Source: Plicaturopsis crispa FD-325 SS-3 (Eukaryota > Basidiomycota > Agaricomycetes > Amylocorticiales > Amylocorticiaceae). From it: 64,000 bases of DNA. Made by a program: the position numbers and the translations under genes. Location: positions 2,592,541 through 2,656,540 of the forward strand of contig KN832555.1 in NCBI GenBank assembly GCA_000827205.1, read 5' to 3'. Positions 2,661-61,287 of this stretch are shown in pieces. Below the pieces are notes generated by a model. It worked only from the letters and a program-made list of their open reading frames with translations. It did no database searches and was not told the DNA's origin. Each line of letters starts with the position of its first letter. Within the stretch, counting starts at the first letter, position 1.

Positions 2661-2945
2661 TAGCCAGTGGAAGATGGGGAGAAACGCCTAGTAGCTCCCG
2701 ATGTCACCGTTATACCTCCAGCTGATATGGTGTAATGGCGTTGAATAGCACGAAACTGGATTATGCGTCGAATTTTTTTGTATTTATAGGGATACCCCAG
2801 GGACAAACCAATGCATGTACACGCTGTCGCTGCTCTATATTCGAGATGGATGCAGCCAATATTATAAAATACACGAAGAGATAGTAAGTTTGTCCTGTCA
2901 ATGTCACCGATGTCCAACTAGCGATAAAGAAAGCATTTGGGGGCG

Positions 2946-37394: not shown

Positions 37395-39877
37395 ATGCTC
37401 GCATCTTCAGCGAGAAATGTCTTGCCCAAGCCGACACGACATCCCTTCAGGTTTCGTGGCTGTCTTCGTGCAAAACGCCCCGTAAATGCCCGAGTTCTGT
37501 CGACGACTTCCCCCATCTTGCCGGCGTCGGTCGACGACATAGCACTCGTCTCGCTATTTGACCAGCCCAGCCGTTTTGGCTCCAGGAAATCACCGTTATC
37601 GCCGACTGGTATATTCGGGCATCCTGACTTGACGACACCAAATGCCCTGTTGGACCTCACCGACTCGACGCTCCTCCGGGCACAGCTCTTGACGGAACGC
37701 ATCGTACGAGCACGCGAGTCTCACGACGAGCTGTCGAAGGTCGTCAAAAACTTGGACAGGCTCAGTGATATGCTATGTGGGGTCATTGATCTGGCAGAAC
37801 TGATACGGAATGCGCATCCTGACGCTGCATGGGTCGACGGCGCCAATGAAGCGTATGAGAAGTTGTGCGAGTTCATGAACGTTCTGAACACTCATGTTGG
37901 GCTATATGAGGTACGTATCTATGCCGCTTTCTATACGTGTTTAATGAGAATTTATCGACCGCTAGGTTCTCTCTGCTGTGCTGTCAGACGCCTCCATTGT
38001 GAAGTCGCTCACGCCAGAAGCGTACCAGACTGCCCTCATATTTTGGAGAGACTTTGAAAAGTCTGCCATTAACCTACCACCAGAGCAGCGAAACCGTTTT
38101 GTCTCGCTGTCTTCGGAGATCCTCGTTCTCGGCCGTCAGTTTCTTAACGAAGCTGCTAACGCAAGACCACCCGCGACTATAAAGCCCTCCGAGCTGTCTG
38201 GCCTCAAGGACAAGGGCATGGGTGTCCGGCTACAGCTGCAGGCCCAATTCACCCAGCGCGACCTGCATGTTTATCCGGGCTCGTTACAGGCGCAAATGAT
38301 TATGCGCTCGGCACCTAATGAAGAGCCCAGAAAGAAGGTCTATATGGCTACCTACTCGAGCACGCCGGAGCAGATACGCACTCTCGAGCGACTTTTACAC
38401 ACCCGCGCGGAATTAGCCTCTCTCATTGGCAAGGAAAGCTATGGTGACATGACTCTTGGAGATAAAATGGCAAAATCCCCTGGTAAGTCCCAACCACATT
38501 ATGCTGAAACTACTCTGACGTAGTATGACCACAGAAAATGTCCAGTCCTTTTTAGATGCTCTCATGGACCACACGCGACCATATGCGAGGAAGGCCCTTC
38601 ATGCTCTCAGCCTGCGAAAGCAGGCGCATCTCAATACTTTTACTTTACCAGTAATACAAGCTTGGGATAGAGACTACTATTGTCCCCCGGAGCCACCGGC
38701 CCCACCACTACCCCTGCCCCCATTGACAGCGGGAACCGTGTTCATGGGCCTTTCACGACTGTTCCGCCATCTATACGGCATATCACTTCGGCCGGCCGAG
38801 GTCACGACGGGGGAGACCTGGCACACCGACGTGCACAAACTCGAGGTCGTGGACGAGAATGCGGGCGTCATTGGGTGGATCTATGCTGACATTTTTGCGC
38901 GTCGGGGCAAGGCAAGCGGCGCTGCCCACTACACTGTTCGGTGCTCCCGACGCACGGATGACGATGACGAAGCAGGAGATCTTGTGGTCGAAGGTGCCGA
39001 ACAGATCGTTGCCGTGTCTCAAGCGTTCGAACGGGTCAAGCAATTCAAGCTGCCTCGGGAAGCCAAAACGTTCCAGTTGCCACTAGTCGTGCTCTTGACC
39101 GAATTTACCCGCCCGACGATTCGAGGCGGATCGACGGTTCTCGAGTGGCACGAGGTCTTGACGCTGTTCCATGAGATGGGGCACGCTATGCACTGTAAGT
39201 GTCTATCGTCTTGCGTTTTATCGACCGCAAACTAAAATGCAATGACAGCTATGATTGGCCGGACGGAGTATCACAACGTCTCCGGCACCCGCTGTGCAAC
39301 GGACTTCGTGGAGCTACCGTCCATACTGATGGAGCACTTCCTCAACTCCCCGAATGTCCTGTCTTTATTCGACGCCAACGGCACATCTGTCATGAAGCAA
39401 GCGGGGAATCATCACGAGGACCCGTGCCGCTCCATCGACACCTACTCGCAGATCCTCCTCGCCTCGCTCGACCAAGTGTATCACTCGTCGGCCGTCCGCG
39501 ATCCCAGCTTTGACTCGACGGCAGTCCTTGCCGACCTGCATAACAACCGCGGCCTCATCCCCTTCGTGCCCGGCACGTCCTTCCAGACCCAGTTCGGCCA
39601 CCTCTTCGGGTACGGCGCGACGTATTACTCGTATCTCTTCGACCGAGCGATCGCCTCGCGCGTGTGGCGGAAAGTCTTCTCGGGCGATCCGCTGAGCCGG
39701 GACACGGGGGAGAAGTACAAGCGGGAGATCCTGCAGTACGGTGGCGGCAGGGATCCGTGGGCGATGGTCGGCGCTTTGCTTGACGCGCCGGAGTTGGCTG
39801 TTGGTGATGCGGAGGCGATGCGGGAAGTAGGCAGGTGGAGGATCGAGGATGAGGTTGTAGATGCTGGGAGATATTGA
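37395..39877 (+). CDS. MIP1: mitochondrial intermediate peptidase (left border gene of the A mating-type locus)
   Basis: An M3-family zinc oligopeptidase of the mitochondrial matrix that removes an octapeptide from certain imported precursors. The start ATG 37395 opens [20 protein letters not shown], an Arg-rich targeting peptide. Then come [56 protein letters not shown] and [19 protein letters not shown]. The zinc site HEMGHAMH is near residue 560, directly before an intron (donor GTAAGT at about 39195). The next exon has [19 protein letters not shown], and the glutamate of [18 protein letters not shown] is the usual third zinc ligand region. [20 protein letters not shown] closes the catalytic domain; the stop is at 39877. 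MIP flanks the HD genes in nearly all Agaricomycetes. Confidence 0.96.
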
Positions 39878-42290: not shown

Positions 42291-42637
42291 AGGACCCCCG
42301 AATATTAGGGTAAATGCCGTTATGAAAATCGCAAAAGCTGATTTTTTTTGCCCGGATGATTTGCGAGGGACGGATCCCATTTTGCCCGGATGGCAACTGG
42401 CCTTATTGCCTTTTCGGGCGCTTTACCCACCCGAAAAATCACGTGCATAAGCGCAAAATTTTGGTGGCGGCGCCTGCGGCGCCGCCCCTTCCCCCTGCAA
42501 AAATTTTGCCCGGACGCCACATGGCCTCCCTCGCAGAGGGCAAGATTTTTGCCCGGATGGCATATGGCCTTCGGGCGAAAAGTGCAAATTTTGCCCGGAT
42601 GATTCAAACGGCATTTAGCCTAATATTCGGGGGTCCT
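42291..42637. mobile_element. 347 bp MITE with 31 bp terminal inverted repeats and 8 bp target duplication (hAT-like)
   Basis: The left end AGGACCCCCGAATATTAGGG and the right end read in reverse (AGGACCCCCGAATATTAGGC) pair over 31 bases with a single mismatch. The flanks 42283-42290 and 42638-42645 are both AGCAGTGG, a perfect 8 bp target site duplication. That length is usual for hAT elements, though the end bases are not the usual CAGNG. There is no coding capacity. Inside are five copies of TTTTGCCCGGA (about 42348, 42380, 42504, 42547, 42589) and a GC-rich perfect hairpin near the middle (arms of 9 bases, 42466-42486). The perfect duplication and near-perfect ends suggest a recent insertion. 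Confidence 0.85.
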
Positions 42638-42932: not shown

Positions 42933-45200
42933 TCATGGATCGGATCTGCAATAGTAGATTAATGAGATAGAAAAACTACGCGTACGAACGATGCGACTTA
43001 CGAGGCAAGTTCTTCCTCAAGCTTCCGCGCCGCCTCGCGGTACCGCCGCAGCTCCTCGAGCTTCGCTTGCTTTACCGCGGCGACATCGGCGTGGGGCGGG
43101 ATAGAAAACATGTCTGCTATTGACGCAGCTGATATGCCCTCGGACCCGTTTCCCGAGAATGGATCCTCGGAAGCAAATCGTGGCTCCAGCATGAACGGCA
43201 CGGATAGACCGTCGGATTCGTTGAGATATTTGTCGTTGCCTAGAGATAGGTAGGGATTCCATTCGTCCGAGGGTGGCGTGACCGGAGCTGACGACGAGTG
43301 AGGGATGTAGCTCGAGAGATCGTAAGAGTCAGTCGGAGCACTATCCTCAGTGTTGTAAGTCGGCAGGTTCGATAAATCGAAAGCAGAAGATGGCAGCGTC
43401 GATTGCGCGTTGCTAGGAGAGGCTTCATCCTGAGAGGAAGTAGACAACGAGTCGGAGAAATGGAAATAATCTCCTGCAGAAAGCGGTGAGATCGCTATCA
43501 AACACCAACGATATATGTGACTTACCATGAGTGAATACCGTAGGATCGCTTTCGAACGCAGGAGGGTTCCACAAGACCTCAACGTCCGTCGTTGTGGAGA
43601 GATCTAGTTCGCCCGCAGTGACGGCAGAGGGCATGGAGAAGTCGAGGAGACTGAAGTTTTGGTGGAACCAATCCTCGACCTCGGGAGCCTTCGCTAATGG
43701 GAACGGGTCAGACACGGTCTGCATACGCGGACCAGCATCCAGACCGCGCGGACGCTTAGGGACACCTTGGAGGCTAGCATCCGATAAGCGGCGCTTACGG
43801 CTCGGGGCAGGTGCAGTTGGGCGGTGTTGACCTTCTGCAGTAGTGGCGGCCGAGCTCTGTGGATGTGCCGCATCGTCGGCCTGCTCAGGAGTATCAGACG
43901 GGTAGACATCGGATAGCCGGCGTTTGTGAGAAGATGGGGCTGGAGCTGACGCCGTGGGCATGGCCGATGTAGAGGCTGTGGACGGCTCAGGGGATGGGGC
44001 AGATGACTGAGGGGATGGTAAAGAGGTACAGCCGTCGTAGACCGATGTGGGCGAAGAGGGACGGCTTATCCTAGATGTGGCGTTAGACGAGGGGCTTCGA
44101 AACAAGGTTATATATTCTCACCTCGGGCGTTTGTTGGACACAGCATCGGTGTGATAGTCAGAATCAGAAGACGAAGATGCACGGCGCTTGCGGCTTGCAG
44201 CAGCGGGAGGTGGAGTAGCGTCGTCCTCGCTTTCGCCCGGCTCAGCGGTCGCTTCGCGTGACGAGGAAGCAGGTGAAGGCAGCGACGACGCCGCGCGCAT
44301 GCGTTCGGTCGCCTTCTCCAGCGCGCGCTCCTTTCGCCTGTCGGCCCTCTCCTGCTCCTTCTGTTGCTGCGCAGCAAAAACAGCCATCTCCTTCGCCTGC
44401 TGCTGCCTCTCCCGGTCCTCTGGCGAGAGGTCCTTCAGCACCGTGTCCAGCGTTCCAGCAAGCTCACTCTTCTTGAACTGCGGAGCGTACAGAGCCTCTG
44501 CGTTGAGCTTCATCTGAACAAACTCGCATTCGATGAGTTTGTTGGAGCTCTGGCTTGATAGATCCTCGACAAGATAGCTGTACGCCGCGGTAAGCATATC
44601 GTGGCGGCAATTATTGAAATGTTTGCGAAGAATCTTTGTCCACCCTATGCGCCGCCGAACGCTTGTAAACCACGCGTTGATCGTTTTGAGGGAGCTCCCG
44701 GAGCTCCTCGCAATTTTTTCCTTGAGTTCTGTGGTGGGATAGGGATTGTGAAGGTTTTTGACCAGCCATTTATAGGCAGACGCGATGTAGGGAGGGCAAG
44801 GCGATGGTTCGGAGGGCATAACAGGTGCTGGGAAGATATCTGTCCTGGATGAATCAGAGGACACGGAGTCGGAGGACCGCGGGTCGCTGTGATAAGATGA
44901 TGACTCTAAGTCGATTTCGGCGAATATTGCAGCGAGCTCCTGTTCTGAGGAAGACGACAATTGCTTTATCTCTGCGCTCTGGTCGAGCAAGTTGCGCGTA
45001 AACACGGCCATGCTAGATGCGATGCGGTTTGCTAAAGCTGTGGTCTCATCCGAGAGTGCGCCATTCTGCATGGCGGCTGCGAAATCGTCTTTCAGCTCCT
45101 CCCACGCAACCTCGAACGCGTCCATGGGTGTGTCCCCGGCCATAGCAGAGAAAAAGTCATTTTGAGCGCGTAGCAATCGATGCTGAATAGAGGTATCCAT
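42933..45200 (-). CDS. HD1-a: HD1-class (TALE) homeodomain mating-type protein, copy a
   Basis: The start ATG at 45200 opens MDTSIQHRLLRAQNDFFSAM. Residues 1-130 form the helical N-terminal region that in this class governs self/non-self dimerisation. The homeodomain covers about residues 135-190: YKWLVKNLHNPYPTTELKEK, then SLKTINAWFTSVRRRIGWTK. The PYP motif and longer loop mark the TALE type, i.e. HD1. A charged coiled stretch (RRKERALEKATERMR) and two basic clusters (SRKRRLSDAS; SHKRRLSDVY) serve as likely nuclear signals. Introns lie near 44121-44070 and 43528-43475. A strong GTAAGT donor just before an in-frame TAA (42998) and an acceptor at about 42948 would end the protein at TGA 42933-42935 instead. 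About 690 residues. It pairs with HD2 proteins of a compatible mate. Confidence 0.92.
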
Positions 45201-46006
45201 GGTCAGACGAAGATGTCGACCAATGTCGGTCAGAAAATAGCGATGAGTGGTAAATTGGGGGAAGACCACGACATGCAGCTAGGACTTGAGATTATCGAAC
45301 GTGACAACAATGGGGAAATTGTGTCGCCGCTCGAAATGACAATGGGAGGTGACATGCCACATGTCTTTTATTTGGCTGTGTTAGGCTGCGGCATCTACAG
45401 CTTCCATTTCCTCCGACAGCATAAGTACATGTTCTGGTCGATTTCATCCAAATTCCATCCAATCTGTGGATAATGATACTGAGGCCTGGTAGGAGAGTAG
45501 AAGAGTACACGGCCTGGACCAGGAAGACAATGCTCTTCAGATAATTGATACATTTATTGATACACTTCCGTAGTTAACGTTACATATCAGACAGCGAGAA
45601 GACAATGCAGTATGTAGCGAGAGCAAAGAGATGGGACAGCGACGACTAGGTATAAGTATGCGATGATGATGTACATGTATATCAGGAAGATAAAGTAACA
45701 AGCGATTGAATATGGAGTTGATAAAAACATAGGTGTGCATGAGAATAGATGTATTTCATGGATGCATAGAATGATGTCATGGTGGACACTGAGTCCTGAG
45801 GGGTGCGGTGTCACGAGAAAGATTTGTCTGCGTAAAGACTAATGCCATGCACACAGATCTCGAGGGCCACGCGGACTCGATGGTCAACGCGTGCCGTCAA
45901 GTCACTGCCACGAATCCAAGCACCGGAGCAGCGAGGCCTGACGAGCCCAAGCACGTCGAGCGGTGAAGCTCCGTGCATAAAATGAGTCCACAAGAACGTC
46001 GTGCGA
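45201..46006. promoter_or_regulatory. HD1-a promoter and HD2-a terminator region
   Basis: Because both genes read leftward, this 800 bp stretch holds the upstream region of HD1-a and the 3' flank of HD2-a. The part next to HD2-a (about 45850-45990) matches the 3' flank of HD2-b (see the repeat entries). No other gene is supported. Confidence 0.5.
45306..45313 (-). promoter_or_regulatory. AACAATGG site upstream of HD1-a (HMG-box/SOX-type consensus)
   Basis: Plus strand reads AACAATGG, so in the direction of HD1-a it is CCATTGTT, 106 bases upstream of the start codon. The same octamer lies upstream of the other three HD genes. Confidence 0.5.
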
Positions 46007-47993
46007 TCAAGGAATGGCGGGCATCGGAGCGGCGCCGAAGGTAAGATTGAACGAAGGGGATTTCTGCGCATGAAGGAATGGCGTGCCCATGTTCGACCGC
46101 ACACCGTACTGCCATTGCGGGGCGCCGACGGTAGCATCGCCCGGGAAAAGTGAATCCATGACGGAGTCGCCGAACAGATCCGTCATGCTCGGGGACGACA
46201 CAGTGAAGTCGAACTGAGAGAACGGGTTTGATGCGGAGGAGGCGACCTCGGGTAGCGCTGAAAACGACGCATCCGGAGTGTTGGCCTCGCTCGCAAAACT
46301 CGAGCCCGAGGACACCCGCTGGGAGGATACCGTGGAAGTGAACGACGAAGTACGGGAGTCTAACGAGCGCGACGGCGACGACCGTGGCGACCCGATGGAC
46401 GAGACCGATGACGCAGAGGAAACACCTCGATGCGCCCGACTCGACCCAGTCGGAGTACGTTTCGGGAGTCCCGCGACCTTCCTCCGTGGAGTGGGAGTCT
46501 CTGCTTCCAGCCGTGCAGACGGAACGAGCGTCGCCGGTTGCGCCGTAGGACTGGGCGACCGGAACGGATGCAGGCGAGACGCAGGCGCGGGCACCGTTGG
46601 CGCAGGTACAGGCCGCTGGCGCCGCGGTGCAAGGAACTCGGTCCTGCGCACGAACGCCGGCAGCGGGGCAGGCGGGACCTGCGTCGTGATCGCAGCTGTG
46701 GCGGCTGCACGATCTGGCTTCGCTACCGGCGGTGTCGTCCTCCGCTTTTTCCCACGGATGTTGTCCTTGTCCTTGCGCACCGTGCGCGCGAAGTTCGTGT
46801 ACTTGACTTGCATTTTGGCGAATGCGTCCGTCAATTTGGCGATGTCGACTGGCGCGTGCTTGATGGGCTTGGTCGCTAGTCGACGGCGCCACTCAGGTGC
46901 GGGGAAATTCCGAACGCCACTCTTGATAGGGAAAGGGTTGAGTTCGGGCGGTGGAGGGTAATTGGTAGGGAATGCATGGGGTGGCGCTGGGGTGTTGAAG
47001 ACATCGACGGCTTCCGGGTCTCTTGATGGTACATATTTGACGGACTGTAAATGAAATAAACACAAGTCTCGAGGAACAGGGCACGTCAAACACTCACACT
47101 CTCGACATCGCTCGAGTCATACTCAATCTCGTATTCGGTCACGTCTGAGTCGACGTATGGCTTCCTCTCTTCTTCGGGGATGACAAGATGGGTGGGCATT
47201 CTGCCCATCATGGGTTCCATTGATTGCATAGGCTTGCTCGACTTGAAATCCTCTTTCTTGAGCTGAATACCCGTCCTCTCTTTGTGTTTGCGGCGGCGAT
47301 TTTGAAACTAGGCGGCTCAATTAACGACGTGGTGTGACAGAAAAGAACTAACATACCCAGACGTATATTTGTTCGTGGTTCATGCTCGACTTGTGTGCTA
47401 GGAACATTCTATCGGCGTGGGAGGGGAACGCGTTATGTTGGAAGTAATACTCGAGGACAGGCACGTATTCCTGCAAGGCATTTCAGAAACGATCATCAAA
47501 CATAGAGCAAGGGTCTCACATTGTTGAACGCTGGTTTCGTCGATTTTGGAGACTTCGCCGACTCTATCGACATGCGGTAAGGCAGCTTGGAGGTTGCTGA
47601 GGATACGGCTTTGCTGATCCATTGGTCCAGTTGCTTCCTGTAGATAATCACGAACGTGCTACGCAATCCTTGTCGTAATGCGGGCACCGAGGGACCCTGC
47701 AACGATTGCATGGCAGATTCGAGTTTGTCGTGCAAGAATGTCCGCATTTCGAGAGCGACGCGCAGAAAGGCTTTGGAAGTGCGCTGCACAACTACGGCAG
47801 GTAAACCCATTTGCGAAAGTGCCGTTTCTAGTACCGTCCGGTCAGGCATCGGTAGGAGGTCGAAACCTAACGAGGGGGTGATCTGTCGGCCAACGTCGAC
47901 TAATAACTGGCGAGAGCCATATGAATCAGAAAGCCGTTTGGCTGTGCCCAGTATGTCCTGTAGCGCGCCTTCATTGACGTGCGCAAGAGCCAT
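46007..47993 (-). CDS. HD2-a: HD2-class homeodomain mating-type protein, copy a
   Basis: The ATG at 47993 (MALAHVNEGALQDILGTAKR) is preferred; the open frame begins a few codons earlier without ATG. Residues 1-158 are a variable helical domain with no visible similarity to copy b. The homeodomain follows across two introns: EYVPVLEYYFQHNAFPSHAD, then MNHEQIYVW, then FQNRRRKHKERTG, a typical 60-residue (non-TALE) type with the WFQNRRRK helix. An intron splits helix 3 between W and F. The C-terminal half is Pro/Ser/Thr-rich with a basic motif RGKKRRTTPP (likely nuclear signal) and ends FNLTFGAAPMPAIP with TGA 46007-46009. HD2 supplies the DNA-binding homeodomain in the HD1-HD2 heterodimer that controls dikaryon growth. 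Confidence 0.92.
46440..46955 (-). repeat. left copy of HD2 tail inverted repeat
   Basis: About 510 bases of the HD2-a tail coding region match 54263-54775 in inverted orientation. By eye the upstream half differs at about one base in a hundred and the rest at about one in twenty; similarity drops sharply past the 46440 end. A second, weaker block of shared sequence lies 3' of the stop (about 45850-45990). Confidence 0.8.
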
Positions 47994-48767
47994 TGCAAGG
48001 GATGTAAGCAAGGAATTTTTGGAGGTGCGTTATGAGCGTAGAACTGGAAGTAGCATGGGCAAAAAGTAGGGAATATATAAGTACTTGTATTTTGAAGCGT
48101 AGGGACGAACACGAGGGCACAGAGTCTCCATTGTTCCGTGGGAAAATGAGGTTTCTGTGTCTTCGTCTAGATATTTTGAAGTACCATCCTGTTAGATCCT
48201 GTTCCATCGATATCATCGGGAAAACTTCAATTTGGTCGTCCCAGGGTCGTCTGCATGGGTCTGAACTACAACTACAGTGGAAAACGGCGATGAGCTGGTC
48301 AAATAATGTAAGAGAAGAGAGATGATAATGTAGCTGCGTAGTACTAGTGACTCGCCCGCGCCCAATGCCCAATGCTCAGGTCTCGGACGCAGAGACGCTC
48401 AGACAAGCTCAGACGTGTACTTACTTACACCGTCGATGGCATATACTTGCGCGCATTGACGGTGCGTTTGCCACAACATGACTGACGACTGCGGTCGGTA
48501 TACATGAATTTATTTGACTACGAGGGTGACCCCAATTAGCGACAACTGTAAGTAGAGACGATTACAAAGACAGCAAGGTACAAGCAGAACGGCATGGACA
48601 GAACATAATGATACATATGATAACTCGATAGCAATGCAACGGCCGTGAGATGCAGGGAGAATGCAGATGAAAAGACATGAGATGGGAATAATGATAGAGA
48701 TATATAGCGACGGGCCCGAAGAAAGCACCATCCTCCTTCGTAGTGCACTCTGTAAAAAACGGCGCGA
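47994..48767. promoter_or_regulatory. HD2-a upstream region
   Basis: About 770 bases between the HD2-a start and the HD1 relic; only short frames. It carries the AACAATGG site listed separately. Confidence 0.5.
48128..48135 (-). promoter_or_regulatory. AACAATGG site upstream of HD2-a
   Basis: Plus strand CCATTGTT; in the direction of HD2-a it reads CGGAACAATGGAG, 135 bases upstream of the start. Thirteen of these bases are identical at the HD1-b site. Confidence 0.5.
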
Positions 48768-49870
48768 TCAGGCGACGGCATACGACACGATGTTCTCAAA
48801 GACGTACCATGCAAGCTCCTCCTGCAGCCTCCACGCGGCTTCAAGGTGCCGCTGCAACTCCTGCAGCTTCGCCTGTTTGACCGCAGCGGACTGGTCCTCC
48901 TTCGACGGCGCAGAAAGCAGCTCCGTGGAGGGACGCTGCCGAGATACCCTCGGACCCTGCGCCCGAGAACGAATTTTCCGACGCGAATCGCGGCTCGGGC
49001 ATATACGACATCGAGAGACCGTCGTACGATCCGAAATACGCGTCGTTGTCGAACGGCGCAAGGGACTGCTGCTCCGCTGAGGGCGGGGTGGCGACAGGGG
49101 CTGCAGGATATGTCGTGGCTCTGTGAGGGTTCGCTCTCGACGAGGCTGGGCAAATCGAATGCGGAAGGAGGTAGGGCGTCAGTAGCCGACGACAGATCGT
49201 AAAGGGGTGCCGACGGGGTAGACATGAGGCTGAAATAATTCACTATAGATTGTGGTCAGTCAGGCCGTTGTGCGCTGATGATAGGCTTTCCTCACCATGC
49301 GTCGGGGAATCATCCACAGAGTGATTATCGAGTTCATGCCAGTTCCACTGGAACTGGACCTCCGCCGAGGCCGTGGTCGACAGGTCTGCAGGCCGCCTGC
49401 AGTGGCGGCGGGGGGCATGCCGAAGTCGAAGAGGTTAAACTCTTGGTCAAACCAGTGCTGCACGTCGGCCGCCTTCGCCAGTGGGAAGGGATCCAACATG
49501 GTCTGCATACACGGACCGGCTTCGAGGCCGCGGGGACGCTAGCCACGCCTTGAGTGCTCGCGTGAGGTTTGTGGCTAGGCGTTGGTGCTTTGAAAAGGCG
49601 TCGAACGTTGAATTTCTAGTAGAGATACTACCTGAGGCTGAGTGCATTCGCCCTGCATTCGCCGGCTCAATAGACGCACAGACATCGAATGGATGTCGTT
49701 GGTGCGAAGGGGAAAACTTGAAGTTGTTAGACACAGCGACGGTGCAGACACGGCAGGTCTTTAGGAGAATCGAAAGACGAAGAATAAGACGCACTGCGCT
49801 TACCGACTCCTGCACAGCGGGCACGCCGTCCCTACAGCACGAAATGGAACTCGATAAATTACTCTCCTGG
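48768..49870 (-). pseudogene. relic of a third HD1 gene, C-terminal half only
   Basis: On the minus strand this stretch aligns in order with the second half of HD1-a and HD1-b. About 49740-49830 resembles the end of HD1 exon 1 (GTTAGACACAGC against GTTGGACACAGC). MQTMLDPFPLAKAADVQHWF matches the HD1-a MQTVSDPFPLAK block. DDSPTHG precedes the conserved donor GTGAGG. PEPRFASENSFSGAGSEGIS matches the last exon. AVKQAKLQELQRHLEAAWRL matches the C-terminal helix. The homeodomain and the N-terminal specificity region are missing entirely, and the frame shifts at least twice (once just after TAGGL and again in the last exon). It ends about 190 bases from the HD1-b start, in the opposite orientation. 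No function as an HD1 partner is possible. Confidence 0.85.
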
Positions 49871-49977
49871 GCCAAGGCTCTGTGCCGCGCTTAAGCGCTA
49901 AGCACCCACGAGTGTAGGAGTAGCCACGGAGTTGTATGTACATGTTTGTTGATATGTACATGATCCATTATTTGGCT

Positions 49978-49985
49978 CCATTGTT
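49978..49985 (+). promoter_or_regulatory. AACAATGG site (reverse) upstream of HD1-b
   Basis: Plus strand CTCCATTGTTCCGTG, 73 bases upstream of the HD1-b ATG; CCATTGTT orientation is shared with HD1-a. The 15-base string also occurs at 48126-48140 upstream of HD2-a. Confidence 0.5.
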
Positions 49986-50057
49986 CCGTGAGAATGTTGT
50001 TGGTCCATATAATCGCAACGCGCTTTTCTGCTCCCTTCAACACACCCACTTACAACT

Positions 50058-52282
50058 ATGGATGAAATAATCCAGCAACGTTTGCTCCAAGCTCAACATG
50101 ATCTTCTCGTCGCTGTTCCCGCAGGTATAGCTCCACTTGATGACTTTCGAGACCAGTGGACATCCCTACGGTCTGATATAGTTGCCGCCACTGCTGAATC
50201 TCGCCTCTGCGACGAAACTCTTCAGCTTGCGCATCATGTCTCATCCGCCATATCTCTCCTGGCTGACAGCTTCTTGACACTGGAGGAGAACTACGAATCT
50301 ATCAGCTCCACTCAACGAACGGATCTGGAGGCTATCTTCGAACGCGTCAGCCTGACAGATTCCGCGCAGTCTGCGAACGACCATATCATCCCATCGACCA
50401 GCTCCGTTTCTGCGTCCCATCTGCTTTCTCCCGCTAGTCCGATTGCCTCCAACGAATCGGCACCATTACCCGACGCTTCATCTCCCTGCCCACCATACAT
50501 CGGCGCGGCCTACAAATGGCTCGTCAAGAACCTCCACAATCCGTATCCATCGACCGAACTCAAGGAGAAAATCGCTAGCAGCTCTGGAAGCTCGCTAAAG
50601 ACGATCAACGCGTGGTTCACCAGCGTTCGGAGACGGATAGGATGGACAAGGATTCTCCGAAAACGCTTCACCAATTGCCGCCACGATATGCTCACCGCCG
50701 CGTATTGCTGCCTTGTCGAGGACGTCCCCAACCAGCCTTACAACAGGCTCATCGAGTACGAATTTCTCGAGATGAAGCTCAAGGCGGAGGCTCTGTACGC
50801 ACCTCTGTTCAAGAAGAGCCAGCTTGCTGGGACACTTGACACGGTGCTGAAGGACTTGTCGCCGGAGGATCGAGAAAGGCAGGAGGAGGCGAAGGAGGAG
50901 GCGGTTGTTGCTGCGCGACAACGGAGAGACCAGGAGAAGATGGAGAGACGGAAGGAGCGTGCACAGGAGAGAGCAGCCGACCGCATACGTGCTGTGTCCT
51001 CGCTCCCGTCCCCCGCCTCCTCGTCTCGTGAGACGACCCTAGAGCTATCTGAGAGTGAGACGGAAGAGGCGGCCCCTACAGCTGTAGCTGGCCGCAAGCG
51101 TCGTTCATCGTCTTCTCATTCTTGCGCCACGGATATGTCTAATAAGCGCCCCAGGTATGGTTGAAAAGCTTATCCTCTTATTGTTTATTTCTTCTAACGC
51201 CTCATTTTAGGACCAGTCGTGCTTCATCATGGGTCGATGACGGTCGCACCTCTCTACCATCCCCTCGATCACCCATCGCATCGCCTTCTCTTCCGTTCCC
51301 GCCTTCTCCTACCGCTATCTCTGCGCCCACTGCCCTAGCATCCCATAAACGACGCTTATCTGATGTATATGCGTCTGATATTCCCGAGCAAGGTGCTCAA
51401 ACATCGGCTCATGCGCACTCTTCTGCTTCTCCTTCGACCACTCAACACGGTACACCTGCTGCTCCCGCGAGCCGTAAGCGCCGTCTCTCCGATGCTTCAT
51501 CCCAGGGTGCTCCTAAGCGTCCACGGGGTATGGCTGGTATCCCTCGTATGCAGGCTGTATCGGACCCGTTTCCGTCAGTCAAGGCTCCTGAAGTCGACTC
51601 GTGGTACCATCAGCACTTCAACCTATTCGATTTTGGTATGCCGTCTGCCGTCACGGAAGGTGGTTTGGATCTCTCCACAGCCACTGACCTTGAGGTGTTA
51701 TGGAGCACACCTGAACCTGAGTCTCATACTTATCCCGCGGAACAGTTGCTGATGCATGGTGAGCTCTATTTCCCCTCCTAATACGATTGCACTGCTGATT
51801 CACATATTGATCAAGATTACTACAATTTTGCGGAGGCTGCTGCTCCCCCTCCCAGTGATGACTCCGCCGTGGACGCCCTGCCCGCGCTACCCCCTTTGGC
51901 CTTCGACTTATCCGATCTCCCTCCCCAAGAATACCGCCACGACCCAGTCGAACATTACGACTTCTCGAGTTTCATGACCCAATCGGCGTCGTCACCTTCT
52001 ACTCCCCCGACAGACGAATCAAATCCTTACGCGTCTCTCGGCAGCGATACATATTCCAGTGGATACGACTGTTCATCTCTGTCGTTCGTTCCGGAACCGC
52101 GATTTGCCTCGGAGAACCCGTTCAGCGGGGCAGGCTCCGAAGGTATCACCCTCTCATCCATAGCCGATATGTTCTCCGTCCCGTCACCTGCAGACCCATC
52201 AGCGCTGAAGCGGGCGAAGCTTGAAGAGCTGAGGCGGCATCAGGAAGCGGCCCGGCAGCTCCAGGCGGAGCTTGAGCTGTGA
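50058..52282 (+). CDS. HD1-b: HD1-class (TALE) homeodomain mating-type protein, copy b
   Basis: The start ATG 50058 gives MDEIIQQRLLQAQHDLLVAV. The first 140 residues are a helical N-terminal domain weakly similar to copy a. The homeodomain spans about residues 143-200: YKWLVKNLHNPYPSTELKEK and SLKTINAWFTSVRRRIGWTR, about 90 percent identical to copy a. A conserved middle follows (AGTLDTVLKDLSPEDRERQ, a coiled charged segment), then basic clusters GRKRRSSSS, SHKRRLSDVY and SRKRRLSDAS. Introns lie near 51155-51210 and 51759-51814. The final helix ALKRAKLEELRRHQEAARQL leads to TGA 52280-52282; a possible GTGAGT donor at this point with an acceptor near 52330 would give the same last residues and stop at 52334. 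About 690 residues. Confidence 0.93.
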
Positions 52283-53149
52283 GTACTTTGCGTCATTCGT
52301 TTCTGGTGTCTGTCTAACGACGCTTCATAGATGAGAATAAATTCTCATTGTGGCTTGTCTCCGTCTGCTTATATCTTTATTAGCATTTATACTTCTACTT
52401 GGATTACCGCATATCTCATCTCTCATCTTTATTTCTATACTCGCTACCTTGTCACATCTGTATCATCCGCATTGTTCATCGCTTGAGATTCTTCCCGACA
52501 CTTCAACGTTTTACTTTCCAGTCGCTAATAGTACTGAAATGCAAATGTACACCGGTTTCTTCGCTATCTCTCCTAGGCTGCACAAGTTTCACATTCGAAG
52601 ACATGAAAACACGCACCATCCATAGAGCCATACTATCCAACGTGTTTTCTGGTCGACACTTTCTTGACGCTCTTGGTCAAACTAGAGTACATAAGTGCTT
52701 GGTCTTGCAGGCGCTTGTTCCTTCTTTACTTTTATTTAAACGCTGTAAGCGTACTGCACCTTTGCGGCAACCGAACCACTGGCGTAAGGACGTCATGCTA
52801 CATGGTCTGCAGTTGGGGCAACAGGCTAGGCTGTCTGAGAAATCGCCGTATATTGACAGATTGATATTCGTAGATGGGTCTATAGGTGAGTAGTATCAGC
52901 CAGAGTACGTGCAATTGGACAATTTGAATGACATTGACAACGACATTGCCGACGCGCCACGTAGTCACGGGACTCTGTGATTCAGTCACGGCCCACGTGC
53001 TATCACAATGCCGAGGAACAATGGCACGGCATCGCAAGTATTCCCACGCTTATCGAACCGCCATTGTCCGTTCCCTGCACATATACTCCACCCCGCATTG
53101 CACTCGCATTGCACTGGAAAACGATTGCACCCCCATCTCTCATCGCAGG
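52283..53149. promoter_or_regulatory. HD1-b 3' flank and HD2-b promoter
   Basis: 870 bases with low-complexity T-rich sequence near the HD1-b end and short frames elsewhere; no extra gene supported. Contains the HD2-b AACAATGG site. Confidence 0.5.
53017..53024 (+). promoter_or_regulatory. AACAATGG site upstream of HD2-b
   Basis: Plus strand AGGAACAATGGCACGG, 126 bases upstream of the HD2-b ATG, same orientation relative to the gene as in HD2-a. Confidence 0.5.
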
Positions 53150-55199
53150 ATGGCGTCTCTGACTCCCTTGCTTTCCCATTCCCGTCACAGTCTTGCAGAG
53201 ATCCTCCAGAACAGCCGCTCTCAAGCTCTCAAACTCGGGCACCATCCACGCCTCGCAGGTTTACCGAAGTCGACTCCGCCTCCCATTGATCCTATCGTTA
53301 TTGACTTCGACCAACATTTCCCCATACCTGAACCACCGCTTGCCGAACTACTCGCCTTAGGTGTCGACCTCGCGACTAGAGAGCGCCTCTCGTCGGCTTA
53401 CCTTCAGACGGCCAAGCAACTGAGAGCAAAATGCGAGCAGCTGATACATCGAACACTGGCTGCATTGCCTCATTCAGCATCGCGGTCGAGTACCCAAGCT
53501 CGGATAACCGCGGCCTACAAATCCCAATATATGCAGATGATCAGTACTTGGGCCGAAGATGTTTTGGAATCGTGTCGGAAACGAGTTATGGACCATCACG
53601 ACAGTCGTGCGATCTCTCGCGTTGTCCAGCGGTCGAGTAGCTCGCCCTCTGCAAAGCACAACGATCGAAGACCATTTAACAATGTGAGTTGCCATCTTTG
53701 TCTGCTCGGAAACGTAGCTGAATCATGGTACAGGAATATGTACCCGTCCTCGATTATTACTTCCAGCACAACCCCTTCCCATCCCACGCCGACAGAATGT
53801 TCCTCGCCCAGAAATCGAACATGAATCATGATCAAATATACGTCTGGGTACGCAGAGATGTATCTCATCCTGTCCTACGTTTGCTGATGTCTTGCTTCGT
53901 TAGTTCCAAAATCGTCGCCGTAAATATAAGGAAAAGACTGGCGTTCAGCTGAAGAAGGAGGATTACAAGTCTTGCAAAACGATGCAATCCATGGACCCAA
54001 TGGTTGGGCAGATGCCCGCACATCTCGTTGTTCCCGAAGAAGAGCGGAAACCATACGTCGACTCAGACGCCACGGAGTACGAGATCGAATACGACTCGAG
54101 CGATGTCGAAAGCGTACGTTTCATTTTCTTCACCAGGGATTTAATACGACTCGCTTACCCATCTTATCAGCCTGTGACATACGTGCCTTCCAGGGAGCCA
54201 GAAGCCGTTGACGTCCTCAACACCCCAGCGCCACCACACGCATTCCCCACCACATACCCTCCACCGCCCGAACTCAACCCTTTCCCTATCAAGAGTGGCG
54301 TTCGGAATTTCCCCGCACCTGAGTGGCGCCGTCGACCAGCGACCAAGCCCATCAAGCACGCGCCAGTCGACATCGCCAAATTGACGGACGCATTCGCCAA
54401 AATGCAAGTCAAGTACACGAACTTCGCGCGCACGGTGCGCAAGGACAAGGACAACATCCGTGGGAAAAAGCGGAGGACGACACCGCCGGTGGCGAAGCCA
54501 GATCGTGCAGCCGCCACAGCTGCGATCACGACGCAGGTCCCGCCCGCCCCCCTGCCGGCATTCGTGCGTAGAACCGAGTTCCTTGCACCACGGCGCCAGC
54601 GGCCTGTACCTGCGCCAACGGTGCCCGCACCTGCGTCTCGCCTGCATCCGTTCCGGTCACCCAGTCCTATGGCGCAGCCGGCGACGCTCGTTCCGTCTGC
54701 ACGGCTGGAAGCCGACACTCCCACTCCGCGGAGAAAGGTCGCGGGACTGCCAAAGCGCACACCGACTGGGTCGAGTCGGGCACATCGGGGGGTCTCTTCG
54801 GCATCATCGGTCTCGTCCATCGCGTCGCCGCGGTCGTCGCCATCGCGTACATTAGATTCCCGTACTTCATCGTTTACGTCCACGGCATCATCCCAGCGGG
54901 TGTCTTCGGGATCGAGCTTTGCGAGTGAAGCTATTACTCCGGATGCGTCGTTCGCAGCGCTGCCAGAGATCGCTCCCTCCCCGTCGAACTCCTTCTCCCA
55001 ATTCGACTTCGCCATGTCGTCTTCCAACATGACAGATCTTTTCGGCGACGCCACTTTCCCGAGCGACGTCGACCTCAGCGTGCCGCAATGGCAGTACGGC
55101 GTGCAGTCGGTCATCGACCTCAGCAGACAACTGTCCGCGATGCAGAAGGCGCCGTCGTTTGATTTCTCGTTTGCGGCCTCCCCGACGCCCGTCTCGTAA
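53150..55199 (+). CDS. HD2-b: HD2-class homeodomain mating-type protein, copy b
   Basis: The start ATG 53150 gives MASLTPLLSHSRHSLAEILQ. Exon 1 ends at 53682 (PFNN) and encodes about 177 residues with no visible similarity to the copy a N-terminus. Exon 2 starts at 53734 (EYVPVLDYYFQHNPFPSHAD, MNHDQIYVW), and exon 3 begins FQNRRRKYKEKTG, so helix 3 is split as in copy a. VVPEEERKPYVDSDATEYEI and the basic RGKKRRTTPP block follow. The Pro/Ser-rich tail is nearly identical to copy a until about 54775, then diverges slightly and ends SFDFSFAASPTPVS with TAA 55197-55199. Function is as for copy a; a compatible HD1 partner must come from the other parent. Confidence 0.93.
54263..54775 (+). repeat. 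right copy of HD2 tail inverted repeat
   Basis: Partner of 46440-46955. The two copies lie 7.3 kb apart in opposite orientation and flank the HD2-a N-terminus, the HD1 relic, HD1-b and the HD2-b N-terminus. Confidence 0.8.
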
Positions 55200-55876
55200 T
55201 CGTGCTATGACCTTGCGGATCTCTTCTATGCTTGGGCTCGCCGGGCCCCGCTGCCCGACGGTGCTTAGACCCTTCGGCAGTGAGCAGACGGCATGCGTTG
55301 ACCGTCGAGTCCGCGTGCCTTTCGCGTCCCGCCCTCGTCGGTGCGCGAGTGTCTCCTCCCTGCGCTACTACATCATCCACATCCACCATACCATTCTATG
55401 CAACTATGACCCATGCCCCATATGTTTTCCCCTGCATTCACCCCCAGGATATATATTCGCTTTAAACCGCTTTTTATTAACTCCATATTCATTCACCCGT
55501 CATTTTACTTTGGCCATACCTTATCGCATACATATACCTACTAACAATCCCCGTGCTTGCTTTCCACATACTGCACTATCTTACTACTACTAACCGCGTC
55601 TTGCTGTCCTGCTATCAAACCAAACATACAAGTGTATCAATAGATGTATCATTTTCCTCGCGATGTTTGAAGGAGCGGCTGAGAGATATACATGTCTGAC
55701 GAGGAGAAGAAGAGCAAGGTAAATGTGCAAAACGTTCATATCAAAGCTCGAGTTACAATTGCAAGGTACAAAGCAAGGTCAAGTTCGTGTACAAGGAGCG
55801 AGCATATCCTGCCGTAGAGATCTTCCGTTATATCCATTACCGCTTACAAGAACTTGGAAGCCTACAACGATAGCAA
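55200..55876. other. HD2-b 3' flank and bfg 3' flank
   Basis: The first 150 bases (GCTTGGGCTCGCCGGGCC; GCATGCGTTGACCGTCGAGT) resemble the reverse of 45850-45990, the flank of HD2-a. The remaining T/C-rich sequence holds no supported gene. A short MSDEEKKSK frame at 55692 has no continuation I can support. Confidence 0.45.
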
Positions 55877-56847
55877 TCAGCCATCGATCTCTACCATATC
55901 ATACGGCTGTAGAGACGCAGATCCACTCACCAAACCCATCATGCTTCCGAGTCCGCCGCTGTTCCCCCCGCCGGTCGCGCCGCTGAACTTCGACTGCACG
56001 AGCAGCTTCATGACGGTCATCCCCGCCGAGTTGACCGCGTCCTGCTTGTTCCCGCCGCCCCCGCCGCCGGACTTCTCGAACAGCTTCGACGCCTCGGCCA
56101 TCGCGAGGCTGATCAGCTGCGTCTGCGAGCCCGCGCTCGAAGCGCTGCCCGAGCCGGAACCGCCAGACGTGAAGCTCTTCAGGATCTGCACAGCGTGCAT
56201 TTAGATTTAGATTAGATTTCCTATAGTAAATATCGCGGGGGGCGCACCTGGAGCGCTGCGGCGCTGCCGATGGACTTCGCGTCGAGGCCTCCTGCGGAGT
56301 CGTTCGAGTACGCCTGCTTGTGCGCGGCCTGGACACCCTCCTCGTCGAGGGGCTCCTCGTGCTGGCTCTGTTTTGAATAAAGCGGGGCCACGCTGCGGTT
56401 GGCGCGACACGACGGGGGGTATGGGTGCGCACCTTGTTCTGGTTCAGGAAGCTGAGGGCGTTGGAGAAGAGCGAGCTCTCCCCGGAGCCGTGCTTGGCGG
56501 CGTTGTTCACCACGTCGTTGTCGTCGACTGTACCAGCGCGTTAGGCGTTAGATCAGAGGCGTTGCGAGGAGTAGGAGATCGCGCGCACAGCTGGGTCCGC
56601 CTGGGGCATGGCTCTGATTGTGCGGGGCGTTGTACTCTGATCCACCGGTCTTGGACACATCGGCTGTTCATGGAATATACGTCGACGATCAGCGACGCGA
56701 TAGTGACGCGATTCAGATGGGAAGGGAGCCTGACATTGGGACTTGCTGTAAGTCTCGTAGCCCTGTTTCGCAATGTTGATGAAGGAGTCCTGTCGCCCGA
56801 TAACCGTAAGCCCTTGTATTAGCAGGAATTTTCTAGCGATTTACCAT
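55877..56847 (-). CDS. bfg: beta-flanking gene product (right border of the A mating-type locus)
   Basis: This conserved fungal protein of unknown function marks the HD locus edge in many mushrooms. Spliced minus-strand blocks are DSFINIAKQGYETY, SKTGGSEYNAPHNQSHAPGG, DDNDVVNNAAKHGSGESSLF, SNALSFLNQNK, then the typical AVQILKSFTSGG, QTQLISLAMAEASKLFEKSG, NKQDAVNSAGMTVMKLLVQS and KFSGATGGGNSGGLGSMMG. The stop is at 55877. The start is placed at ATG 56845-56847, which a GTAAAT donor follows at once; the next exon (acceptor CAG before GACTCC) continues MDSFINIAKQ, so exon 1 would hold only the start codon. The exact joints of the two middle exons are approximate. Gly/Ser-rich and predicted soluble. 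Confidence 0.88.
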
Positions 56848-57303: not shown

Positions 57304-58157
57304 CTATGAACCGAACGCGGTTCCAGTCTGCGTCGTCGCAGGGTACGGTGTAGACGAGGTATTATGCCCGCTCTCGAGCGGTGCGCTCGTCGCCGCTACG
57401 TGACCGGTCGTCTCGGAGTGTGTGGGGTTGGGGCCGCCGATGTATCCCTGCGCAGCTTCCTTTGCCCTGTCGAGCTGTGGCTGGACGGCGGCCTTCGCCG
57501 AGTCGATGTGTGGCTGAAGAGTGGTGCGCGCGGCATCGACGTGGGGCTGGATGGTGGTGCGAGCATTGTCGACGTGTGGCTGCGCGGCTGTCTGCGCGGA
57601 TGCAAGGTATCCCTGAAGAACGGGATCGGGGTCAGAATTTCGGTAGTTAGTCGCACGTGCAAGAGCATAGACGTACCTGTGCGGTAGTCAACGCGTTACC
57701 GGCGAGAGATTTGGCTTGGTCGAGGTACGTGCCGCCGGACGCTTTGGCAGCGTCGACGTCGTGGTGACCTTCGTTAACAGCGGCGTTGGTGGTCGCGCTC
57801 GCCTGCGCGTGTAGCTTATCAAACGCAGAAGGCGGCTCGCCTGTCAACGCAGGGCCCAGGGACTATGCAAAGGAGACGCTTATAAGAATGTAGTGATAAG
57901 CGTTAGGTAGAAAGTAGCCTACCGCTGCTGCCCTCGCGGCTTGTTCGCCCACATCGTGCGTCTTCTCGGCTGTTCTCTCGACTTCATTGCTAGCCGCAGT
58001 GCTGGGCGCGTTGAGACGCGCGTCTGCTGCGGTTGTCTGGTTCTTGACCAGGCTACAATAGAGAGCAACAAGTCAGCTGAAGCCTATGTCGACAAGCAAG
58101 CGGTACGACGTACTCTGCACCGGCGGGGACGTCAACGTTGAAAACTTTTCCTGACAT
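57304..58157 (-). CDS. LEA-like protein with four 11-residue amphipathic repeats
   Basis: The ATG at 58157 opens MSGKVFNVDVPAGAEY. Spliced exons add LVKNQTTAADARLNAPSTAA, VERTAEKTHDVGEQAARAAA, then PPSAFDKLHAQASATTNAAV and YLDQAKSLAGNALTTAQ. The last exon has four consecutive 11-mers (TAAQPHVDNAR, TTIQPHVDAAR, TTLQPHIDSAK, AAVQPQLDRAK) and ends TQTGTAFGS with TAG 57304-57306. Ala/Thr/Gln/Asp richness, lack of Cys and 11-residue periodicity resemble group 3 LEA proteins and related stress proteins that fold into amphipathic helices on drying or at membranes. No signal peptide. A stress-protection role is inferred from composition only. Confidence 0.7.
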
Positions 58158-60860: not shown

Positions 60861-60985
60861 CCTGCCGCCTAGTCTCGTATCACCAGACTCTCTAGACCTT
60901 CCCATTCTGGGTCCCTTGTCTCAGTACAAGGGGCCCAGAATGGGAAAGTACTGAGAGTCTGGTGATACGAGACTACCTGCCGCCT
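60861..60985. mobile_element. foldback element, about 105 bp hairpin flanked by 10 bp direct repeats
   Basis: Arms 60871-60892 and 60953-60974 pair perfectly over 22 bases (AGTCTCGTATCACC... with ...GGTGATACGAGACT). After a short offset the pairing resumes over about 20 bases (CCCATTCTGGG). The loop is about 10 bases. The element is flanked by CCTGCCGCCT on both sides (60861-60870 and 60976-60985), like a target duplication. It lies 30 bases upstream of the light-chain ATG, in its 5' leader or core promoter. It could also be a transcribed regulatory hairpin rather than an element. Confidence 0.75.
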
Positions 60986-61287
60986 GGGGCTAAACCTCGA
61001 CCGAAAGAGATTATCGCCACGTGGTTCGTCAAGTTCGTCAGGCAACAAGTTTCTGCCCTCAACTACTTGTACCTGTAAGTACACAGGCTATACAAGTCAA
61101 GCAGCCACCTTCAAGTACACTTTGCTTGGTATGGTTCATGGCCACAATGAAAAGTAGTTGATACTTACCTGCTGCAGGTGGATAGCTGCGACATCCCGAG
61201 TGTCACCGTACCCTCACTTGAATCCGATCGCCGTGACTGTGTCGATCGGACTTGCACCGTGCCCTTGCCACACAACAGGACATCGAT
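60986..61287. other. intergenic, no supported gene
   Basis: About 300 bases between the foldback element and the F-box gene; presumably promoter of both divergent genes. Confidence 0.45.

Follow-up and report, generated by a model that had tools for sequence, protein, structure and literature searches.

The wealth of mating types in mushrooms owes much to the HD genes; how an HD locus gains pairs without self-compatibility is, to our knowledge, poorly known. Multi-gene, rearranged HD loci have already been described (our statements on them follow the available excerpts of the reports cited by PMC number). Hypsizygus marmoreus (PMC8686365) has three HD1 and two HD2 genes in the order MIP-HD1...HD2-beta-fg, and expression of the extra middle HD1 was not detectable. 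The MATA alpha/beta locus of Trichaptum (PMC8970355) has two HD complexes, of which one HD2 is often inverted, and six strains carry a truncated extra HD2. In the Polyporales (Pycnoporus, PMC4101180; Grifola, PMC10607315; Polyporus umbellatus, PMC11766841) the pair lies <-HD2 HD1-> with respect to MIP and beta-fg; further HD genes occur in some relatives, such as L. sulphureus with three HD1 and one HD2 (PMC9503964). The HD locus of Agaricus bisporus (PMC8305134) contains extra HD copies and a short HD2 5' remnant, the footprints of lost subloci.

The locus studied here, located in a window of 64 kb (the whole stretch of DNA that was analysed), is a new variant of these arrangements. The gene models, from one haplotype, give the order MIP(+), HD1-a(-), HD2-a(-), HD1 relic(-), HD1-b(+), HD2-b(+), beta-fg-like(-):

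37966-39874, + strand: reading frames of MIP (peptidase family M3), left border; Pfam Peptidase_M3 in 3/3 frames given
42998-45200, - strand: HD1-a, complete frame, 699 aa, 3 exons (45200-44122, 44070-43526, 43473-42998)
46007-47993, - strand: HD2-a, complete frame, 611 aa, 4 exons (47993-47520, 47470-47357, 47307-47098, 47044-46007)
48808-49870, - strand: HD1 relic, parts of exons 2-3 in a broken frame, no homeodomain; 3' flank similarity extends to about 48.43 kb
50058-52282, + strand: HD1-b, complete frame, 703 aa, 3 exons (50058-51154, 51211-51758, 51816-52282)
53150-55199, + strand: HD2-b, complete frame, 628 aa, 4 exons (53150-53683, 53734-53847, 53904-54113, 54171-55199)
55902-56540, - strand: beta-fg-like frame, right border; DUF7721 match

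The last frame is tentatively named beta-fg from its position. The HD1 and HD2 genes carry the homeodomains and HD1 domains of the agaricomycete HD (MAT-A) locus and MIP stands at one side; we identify it as the HD (MAT-A) mating-type locus of a fungus of agaricomycete type. The gene models confirm the order, strands and head-to-tail arms given in an earlier note on this DNA. That note called HD1 and HD2 not divergent, which is true of the neighbours inside each arm but not of HD2-a and HD1-b, which diverge across the relic at a distance of 2,064 bp. An adjacent divergent HD1-HD2 pair is absent, which we do not regard as excluding this type of locus, since loci with a flipped HD2 have been reported within the group (Trichaptum, PMC8970355). 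H. marmoreus differs in that its two pairs are described as transcribed divergently outward, whereas at the present locus adjacent genes stand head to tail and only a truncated relic represents the extra HD1. The available part of the Trichaptum report does not describe a nested pair, a promoter relic or a homogenised inverted HD2 tail, and that of the A. bisporus report does not describe a mirror order or a conversion tract. The Polyporales orientation is that of the inner HD2-a/HD1-b pair; the excerpts describe one HD1-HD2 pair, whereas here HD1-a and HD2-b stand outside it in the opposite sense.

The four HD gene models were made by hand, and all of their introns (10/10) have GT...AG borders. 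The frames of both HD1 genes match Homeobox_KN, Mating_N and Mating_C in Pfam; for Mating_C in HD1-b the first-exon frame scores 21.0, below the cutoff of 22.5, and the second 50.4, while the third-exon frames of the HD1 genes have no Pfam match above cutoff. HD1-a resembles TALE homeodomains in the PDB. Once spliced, HD2-a and HD2-b match the Homeodomain family PF00046 at 1.2e-12 and 2.7e-13, respectively, whereas the unspliced HD2 frames have no Pfam match. The overall dN/dS values (0.33/1.92 for HD1-a/b and 0.23/0.80 for HD2-a/b) suggest that all four genes have been kept by selection. Silent sites are near saturation between the copies outside the HD2 tail, and the duplications are old. 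The suggestion that HD1-a may serve in place of the relic finds no support, as HD1-a and HD1-b are both complete and deeply diverged from each other; the signal for gene conversion between these two is borderline (p 0.049 for the best segment and p 0.67 for the longest run), and we do not claim it. Each of the two HD1 and two HD2 genes has its own N-terminal region, and HD1 and HD2 proteins of different haplotypes presumably pair via their N-termini, as is usual for such genes, leading to dikaryon development. Rfam and tRNA scans gave 0 matches each. Searches for relatives in viral contigs with the HD2-b exon 3-4 frame (9 pattern matches) and in bacterial and archaeal contigs with the HD1-a first-exon frame (53 pattern matches) yielded 0 confirmed cases each.

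How did this order arise? It had been read as a mirror: a head-to-tail HD1-HD2 unit duplicated in inverted form would have lost its left HD1 to decay, and HD1-a would be a surplus copy on the outer side of the left arm. Inverted repeats far exceed what chance would give, with 885 nt (90% identity) for HD2 and 638 nt (76%) for HD1, and the inverted similarity of the HD2 copies continues into the 3' flank for about 460 bp (z 38):

45535-46006, - strand: HD2-a 3' flank, inverted copy of 55200-55654
55200-55654, + strand: HD2-b 3' flank, copy of the HD2-a 3' flank

The HD2-a/HD2-b axis lies at 50.59-50.61 kb, within HD1-b, and the HD1-a/HD1-b axis at 47.63-47.64 kb, within HD2-a; none falls at the proposed centre near 49.95 kb. 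The relic/HD1-b axis almost coincides with that of HD2 (50.54 vs 50.60 kb), a position that is compatible with the mirror model too. The relic repeats HD1-a in direct orientation at a distance of 5.78-5.81 kb, and no single mirror includes HD1-a; a mirror plus HD1-a yields the observed order by construction. What stands of the inverted unit is the inversion of the HD2 genes with their flanks and the closeness of the two axes, but HD1-a lies closer to the relic than HD1-b does. In addition, the mirror requires a head-to-tail ancestor and leaves HD1-a, a 19-bp direct repeat and the divergent-promoter orientation of a shared 8-mer unexplained. The relic/HD2-a spacer has no similarity to the HD1-b/HD2-b spacer (z 0.8), which proves little with silent sites near saturation; we therefore no longer count the unlike spacers as disproving the mirror. 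Other readings explain the locus better than a simple mirror, which we consider unlikely.

The relic has no homeodomain, and its matches fall in differing frames. Aligned with HD1-a, it reaches no further into exon 1 than the final 7 bp, and aligned with HD1-b no further than the final 138 bp. The alignment score is 625 to HD1-a and 466 to HD1-b, and the distance is 0.404 to HD1-a versus 0.470 to HD1-b (bootstrap 1.000), in an unrooted comparison of three copies without an outgroup, so that the affinity to HD1-a could partly reflect a long HD1-b branch. The relic-HD1-b distance is the largest of the three in 4/4 overlapping partitions, the exon 3 end being not significant (bootstrap 0.676). 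Identities from cheap-gap alignments (0.762 for HD1-a, 0.786 for HD1-b) are inflated and point the opposite way; scores and distances were used instead. By distance, the relic was rejected as the mirror partner of HD1-b. The changes private to the relic number 8, 2 and 18 at the three codon positions in the exon 2 core, from which it probably functioned as a gene until rather late; at the exon 3 end they are more even (12, 5, 12).

The relic segment is flanked on both sides by a short direct repeat:

48126-48144, + strand: 19-bp direct repeat, left copy; contains the HD2-a 8-bp element (48128-48135)
48145-49975, - strand: proposed 1,831-bp insertion carrying the relic, bounded by the two 19-bp repeats
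49976-49994, + strand: 19-bp direct repeat, right copy; contains the HD1-b 8-bp element (49978-49985)

The copies are identical at 18/19 positions and form the only ungapped same-strand pair of such quality in 42-57 kb at spacings of 200-6000. Under independent bases, 1.3e-5 such matches between the two flanks are expected. Against dinucleotide shuffles the match is less extreme, with z 4.2 and 1/300 shuffles reaching its score, and in the other comparison z 3.7, with a higher shuffle maximum; the flank comparisons formed one set of 15 and one of 11, among which z values of 3-3.7 are weak. Lying between these copies, the relic looks as though it had been inserted between HD2-a and HD1-b. About 10 bp of the repeat are the region of the shared 8-mer element, so the copies may instead be two regulatory sites. 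Minus the relic segment, the HD2-a/HD1-b spacer measures 132+19+63 = 214 bp between a divergent pair; one published spacer, in Flammulina, is 199 bp, and those of Auricularia A14-8 are 153 and 294 bp (the table values in the available excerpt run from 153 to 2,198 bp). An inner HD2-a/HD1-b pair split by the relic is fairly well supported: a promoter of about 214 bp would have been opened by a 1.83-kb HD1-a-like piece, whose entry would have left it flanked by two copies of a 19-bp promoter sequence. The stretch of about 285 bp from the left repeat to the relic 3' flank is left unexplained; compared with three segments, it gave z 0.2, z 0.7 and a weak z 3.0.

Two further copies of the 8-bp element lie upstream of the outer genes:

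45306-45313, - strand: CCATTGTT element, -113 to -106 of HD1-a
53017-53024, - strand: CCATTGTT element (AACAATGG in HD2-b sense), -133 to -126 of HD2-b

AACAATGG/CCATTGTT occurs 5 times in 64 kb against 1.54 expected, a number reached by 2/100 shuffles, and 4/5 occurrences are upstream of HD genes, one per intact gene. It is the sole 8-mer common to all four upstream flanks, taken as 150 bp or 200 bp. Any common 8-mer appeared in 1/19,464 and 0/19,258 draws of four random window segments, a null taken from such segments rather than from other promoters and applied to an 8-mer found after the fact. In 4/4 cases the element is CCATTGTT when read in the sense of an HD1 gene and AACAATGG in that of an HD2 gene, as expected if the flanks were halves of a single divergent promoter. 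Apart from this 8-mer, the 5' flanks do not resemble each other (z 0.3 for HD2-a/HD2-b, z 2.0 for HD1-a/HD1-b). In Ustilago the HMG factor Prf1 induces bE and bW; an HMG-box-like AACAATGG site in each promoter would link the HD genes here to an upstream regulator.

HD1-a and HD2-b are perhaps the halves of a second, oppositely oriented pair. Their orientation, MIP <-HD1 ... HD2-> beta-fg, is that commonly seen in agaricomycetes, and the nesting of opposite pairs would account for both the mirror look and the head-to-tail arms. Against an outer pair, there is no direct-repeat support, and the outer spacers are far longer than a 238-bp spacer requires. In direct orientation these two spacers show no relation (z -0.7), and they are weakly similar when inverted (z 3.0, p 0.023), with the 8-mer as their only common part; compared with the sequence beyond the HD1-a and HD2-b 3' flanks they gave z 0.4-1.0 in 4 comparisons. 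Counts of inversions are informative only for other starting orders, as the nested and mirror orders need 0 by construction. One such order has canonical pairs in tandem (<-HD1 HD2-> twice), with HD2-a and HD1-b each flipped in place and a dead middle HD1. Two inversions then give the four-gene order. For the five-gene order two are enough with a middle HD1 that began on the minus strand, and three are needed otherwise. Type 1 loci of H. marmoreus have HD1.1 beside MIP and HD2.2 beside beta-fg, with three HD1 and two HD2 genes, and 17/52 complete loci carry all five (PMC8686365); in Trichaptum the bHD2 inversion is frequent and a truncated extra HD2 occurs (PMC8970355), and an oyster mushroom haplotype has three HD1 genes. 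This scheme, which requires two independent single-gene flips and leaves the 19-bp match joining HD2-a and HD1-b unexplained, seems improbable to us. We favour the nested reading as a whole, a divergent inner pair split by an HD1 fragment and lying inside HD1-a and HD2-b, which would probably be halves of an opposite-orientation pair, with a probability of about 0.5.

The tails of HD2-a and HD2-b are homogenised:

46505-46964, - strand: homogenised tract (best segment) in HD2-a
54251-54710, + strand: homogenised tract in HD2-b

Among codons for the same amino acid, 139/149 are identical in the best segment versus 145/261 outside (p 0.0002), and the longest identical run is 76 codons against a shuffled maximum of 34. 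Up to the start of exon 4 the HD2-a/b pS is 0.67-0.92; it then falls to 0.00-0.04 and climbs to 0.58. The two homologues, saturated elsewhere, contain a block of identity at silent sites with an internal edge, which points to gene conversion as the likely cause. Third-position GC does not mark the tract (0.70/0.68 inside versus 0.69/0.70 in the rest of the tail). The inverted HD2 copies would exchange sequence by conversion, keeping the C-terminal tails alike and the N-termini and homeodomains distinct. For the pheromone genes of Cryptococcus (PMC12510652), inverted MAT duplicates have likewise been suggested as conversion templates, by analogy with the Y palindromes; in the available part of that report the proposal concerns the P/R locus and is worded 'if confirmed', whereas here a silent-site tract is measured in an HD2 tail. 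An assembly that joined the two haplotypes of a dikaryon in inverted orientation could also place diverged copies side by side, as HD alleles within a species can differ about equally (e.g., P. umbellatus A1/A2, PMC11766841). Such an artefact is very improbable: repeats of at least 40 nt in the window are at most 90% alike over their length, the copies are close to saturation at silent sites except in the HD2 tail, and a second MIP or beta-fg piece was not found in 40.3-55.9 kb, where tblastn gave three weak matches (E 0.16-0.68).

A bolder idea, which we regard as distinctly doubtful, is that the divergent HD promoter is itself the growth site of the locus: through breaks at or near AACAATGG, parts of other HD alleles would be taken up, beginning with an entire inverted pair inside HD1-a/HD2-b and followed later by the relic inside HD2-a/HD1-b. 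Promoter capture, if true, would provide both pair orientations at once, and the loss of one pair would leave the common or the Polyporales orientation. On the same idea, any crossing over between the homogenised inverted HD2 tails would flip the interior as well, and populations would then be expected to contain inversion isomers. The window offers a concrete route by which an HD locus may grow, capture at a common promoter, and a contrast inside one gene between heads that differ and tails that inverted neighbours would copy from each other. A possible origin for the opposite orientation of the Polyporales HD pair is suggested as well.

Between 43 and 55.2 kb the HD mating-type gene copies follow one another, from left to right, as HD1-a(-), HD2-a(-), a broken HD1 copy (the relic, about 48.81-49.87 kb, -), HD1-b(+) and HD2-b(+), and the gene models bear out this order and the strands as the earlier note had given them. 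Models of the four intact genes were built by hand from the sequence alone. HD1-a and HD1-b have 3 exons each (699 and 703 residues) and HD2-a and HD2-b have 4 exons each (611 and 628 residues), all free of internal stops and with GT...AG borders in 10/10 introns. The HD1 frames match Homeobox_KN, Mating_N and Mating_C in Pfam, and a PDB sequence search with HD1-a returned 15 TALE homeodomain sequences, e.g., Meis and PBX. The spliced HD2-a and HD2-b proteins each contain a classical homeodomain according to Pfam; the unspliced HD2 frames gave no Pfam match. Helix III of the homeodomain reads WFTSVRRR in both HD1-a and HD1-b, the usual motif being WFxNxR (PMC4101180), and this appears to be a kind of HD1 degeneration known from other cases. 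The surroundings of the HD genes are as follows.

23534-25813, minus strand: PPR-repeat frame of 760 aa, farther out on the left side of the locus
Left of the HD genes, plus strand: MIP (peptidase M3), border gene
Right of the HD genes, minus strand: DUF7721 gene, border gene, which we take from its position to be beta-fg
61237-62829, plus strand: F-box frame of 531 aa, farther out on the right side of the locus

Directly past the 3' flank of HD1-a lies a 347-bp element (42291-42637) with 31-bp terminal inverted repeats that are 97% complementary, flanked by an exact 8-bp duplication, AGCAGTGG; presumably it is like a non-autonomous hAT-type MITE. To the right of the beta-fg-like gene there is a short tandem repeat (57503-57582; 33-bp unit, 2.4 copies), and a 50-bp inverted repeat at 60870-60975 (90% complementary, 6-bp loop) is either a small palindromic element or a foldback artefact.

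Comparing the locus with itself gave four copy relations among the HD genes. HD2-a and HD2-b are inverted copies (45.54-47.47 and 53.73-55.65 kb; axis 50.59-50.61 kb), as are HD1-a and HD1-b (axis 47.63-47.64 kb) and the relic and HD1-b (axis 50.54 kb); the relic repeats HD1-a in direct orientation at an offset of 5.78-5.81 kb. The earlier note had seen here the inverted duplication of one HD1-HD2 unit around 49.95 kb, with HD1-a as an extra copy, but that centre is the axis of none of the four relations. The idea of a mirror arises because the relic/HD1-b and HD2 axes nearly coincide, and it accounts for this common axis. It is nevertheless unlikely, since it leaves unexplained the affinity of the relic, a 19-bp repeat around it and HD1-a itself.

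We hypothesize, with a probability of about 0.5, that an inner divergent pair (HD2-a and HD1-b), split by the relic, is nested in an outer pair of opposite sense (HD1-a and HD2-b). HD2-a and HD1-b would have been an ordinary divergent pair, in the orientation of Polyporales pairs (PMC4101180, PMC10607315, PMC11766841), that was opened by an inserted HD1-a-like piece. That the relic is an insertion is fairly well supported. It is flanked by two same-strand copies of a 19-bp sequence, CTCCATTGTTCCGTG(G/A)GAA (48126-48144 and 49976-49994), which has no further copy in the window at up to 3 mismatches and forms the only ungapped direct pair of at least 18/19 at spacings of 200-6000 within 42-57 kb. 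Such a match between the two flanks is expected 1.3e-5 times with independent bases, and is less extreme against dinucleotide shuffles (z 4.2, score reached in 1/300; z 3.7 in a separate comparison). Removing 48145-49994, with one repeat copy kept, leaves HD2-a and HD1-b divergent across 132+19+63 = 214 bp. Published spacers include 199 bp in Flammulina (PMC3140503) and 153 and 294 bp in Auricularia strain A14-8, and the tabulated Auricularia values span at least 153 to 2,198 bp (PMC7151073).

The relic holds remnants of exon 2 and exon 3 and perhaps the last bases of exon 1, followed by a 3' flank in which similarity extends to about 48.43 kb; it lacks a homeodomain, and its matches fall in different frames. 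From exon 2 to the stop its distance is 0.404 to HD1-a and 0.470 to HD1-b (952 gap-free columns; bootstrap 1.000), which shows affinity and not a tree, because three HD1 copies cannot be rooted. The relic-HD1-b distance is the largest of the three in 4/4 overlapping partitions, its excess at the exon 3 end being not significant (0.676). In its 3' flank, too, the relic resembles HD1-a (z 13.4), with no match to HD1-b there (z 1.2). At codon positions 1, 2 and 3 the relic has 8, 2 and 18 private changes within the exon 2 core and 12, 5 and 12 at the exon 3 end; given this bias, much of the divergence seems to have accrued while the relic was still a gene. The stretch of roughly 285 bp that separates the relic 3' flank from the left 19-bp repeat (48145-48430) weakly matches the HD1-a upstream spacer (z 3.0).

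HD1-a and HD2-b, now outside, could be a former pair of opposite orientation, although this part is not well supported. Their orientation matches the common agaricomycete order mip-HD1-HD2-beta-fg with divergent HD1 and HD2 (PMC8305134). Their flanks are longer than needed and share an 8-mer only, with no direct repeat between them (z -0.7). Nesting a pair in one of opposite sense yields the observed four-gene order by construction. By inversion, the order takes two steps from two tandem canonical pairs and three from each of three other starting orders. Two canonical pairs with two flips have precedents in Hypsizygus type 1, of the same gene content (PMC8686365), and in Trichaptum, where one HD2 is often flipped and six strains carry an extra, truncated HD2 (PMC8970355), yet we consider this history improbable here.

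All HD comparisons were made within one haplotype of one species. Most synonymous sites differ between HD1-a and HD1-b (overall pS 0.69, dS about 1.9, windows 0.43 to 0.85) and, as far as the beginning of exon 4, also between the two HD2 genes (pS windows 0.67-0.92). Within exon 4, pS falls to 0.00-0.04 and then climbs stepwise to 0.58 at the C-terminus. Among same-amino-acid codons of the HD2 copies (Met and Trp excluded), 284/410 are identical, with 139/149 in the best segment (46964-46505 and 54251-54710) versus 145/261 outside (p 0.0002); the longest unbroken stretch of identity covers 76 codons, against a shuffled maximum of 34. Nucleotide identity, 1.00 at first, declines to 0.63-0.83 on the way to the 3' flank and across it, and the similarity stops there at about 45.535 and 55.654 kb. 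The probable cause of this pattern is gene conversion between the two oppositely oriented HD2 genes; its edge, just within exon 4, is abrupt. In windows, the N-terminal 140 or so residues are only 21-26% identical, and this region is the seat of specificity in related proteins (PMC8305134). A silent-site block directly after the HD1 homeodomain (44622-44349 and 50663-50936; 47/66 same-amino-acid codons identical, p 0.049) is at most weak and perhaps reflects old conversion. An assembly join of two haplotypes is very improbable, because no second MIP or beta-fg piece occurs at E<0.16 in 40.3-55.9 kb and, outside the HD2 tail, silent sites approach saturation.

It is already known that an HD locus can hold several genes of each class (HD1 and HD2), and flips, relics and losses are on record too. 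In full-text searches of open-licence PMC papers we found neither an HD pair nested in another nor a relic bounded by a promoter repeat, and no conversion tract measured between HD2 copies in inverted orientation. For the pheromone genes of Cryptococcus, it has been proposed that inverted duplicates at MAT convert one another, on the analogy of Y palindromes (PMC12510652).

The inner eight bases of the 19-bp sequence, CCATTGTT (reverse sense AACAATGG), occur 5 times in the 64 kb versus 1.54 expected.

45306, 48128, 49978 and 53017: AACAATGG/CCATTGTT element, one upstream of each intact HD gene
33773: AACAATGG/CCATTGTT element, fifth occurrence, not among the HD upstream sites

Read along the gene it precedes, the element is CCATTGTT for both HD1 genes and AACAATGG for both HD2 genes, as expected if the sites were halves of a single divergent promoter. 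The four HD flanks (150 or 200 bp) share no 8-mer besides this one, and random sets of four window segments shared any 8-mer in 1/19,464 and 0/19,258 draws. We take AACAATGG to resemble HMG-box sites of the SRY/SOX kind. Possibly the element is an HMG-factor site that couples the HD genes to an upstream regulator, by analogy with Ustilago maydis, where both b genes are induced by an HMG factor, Prf1 (PMC2916880).
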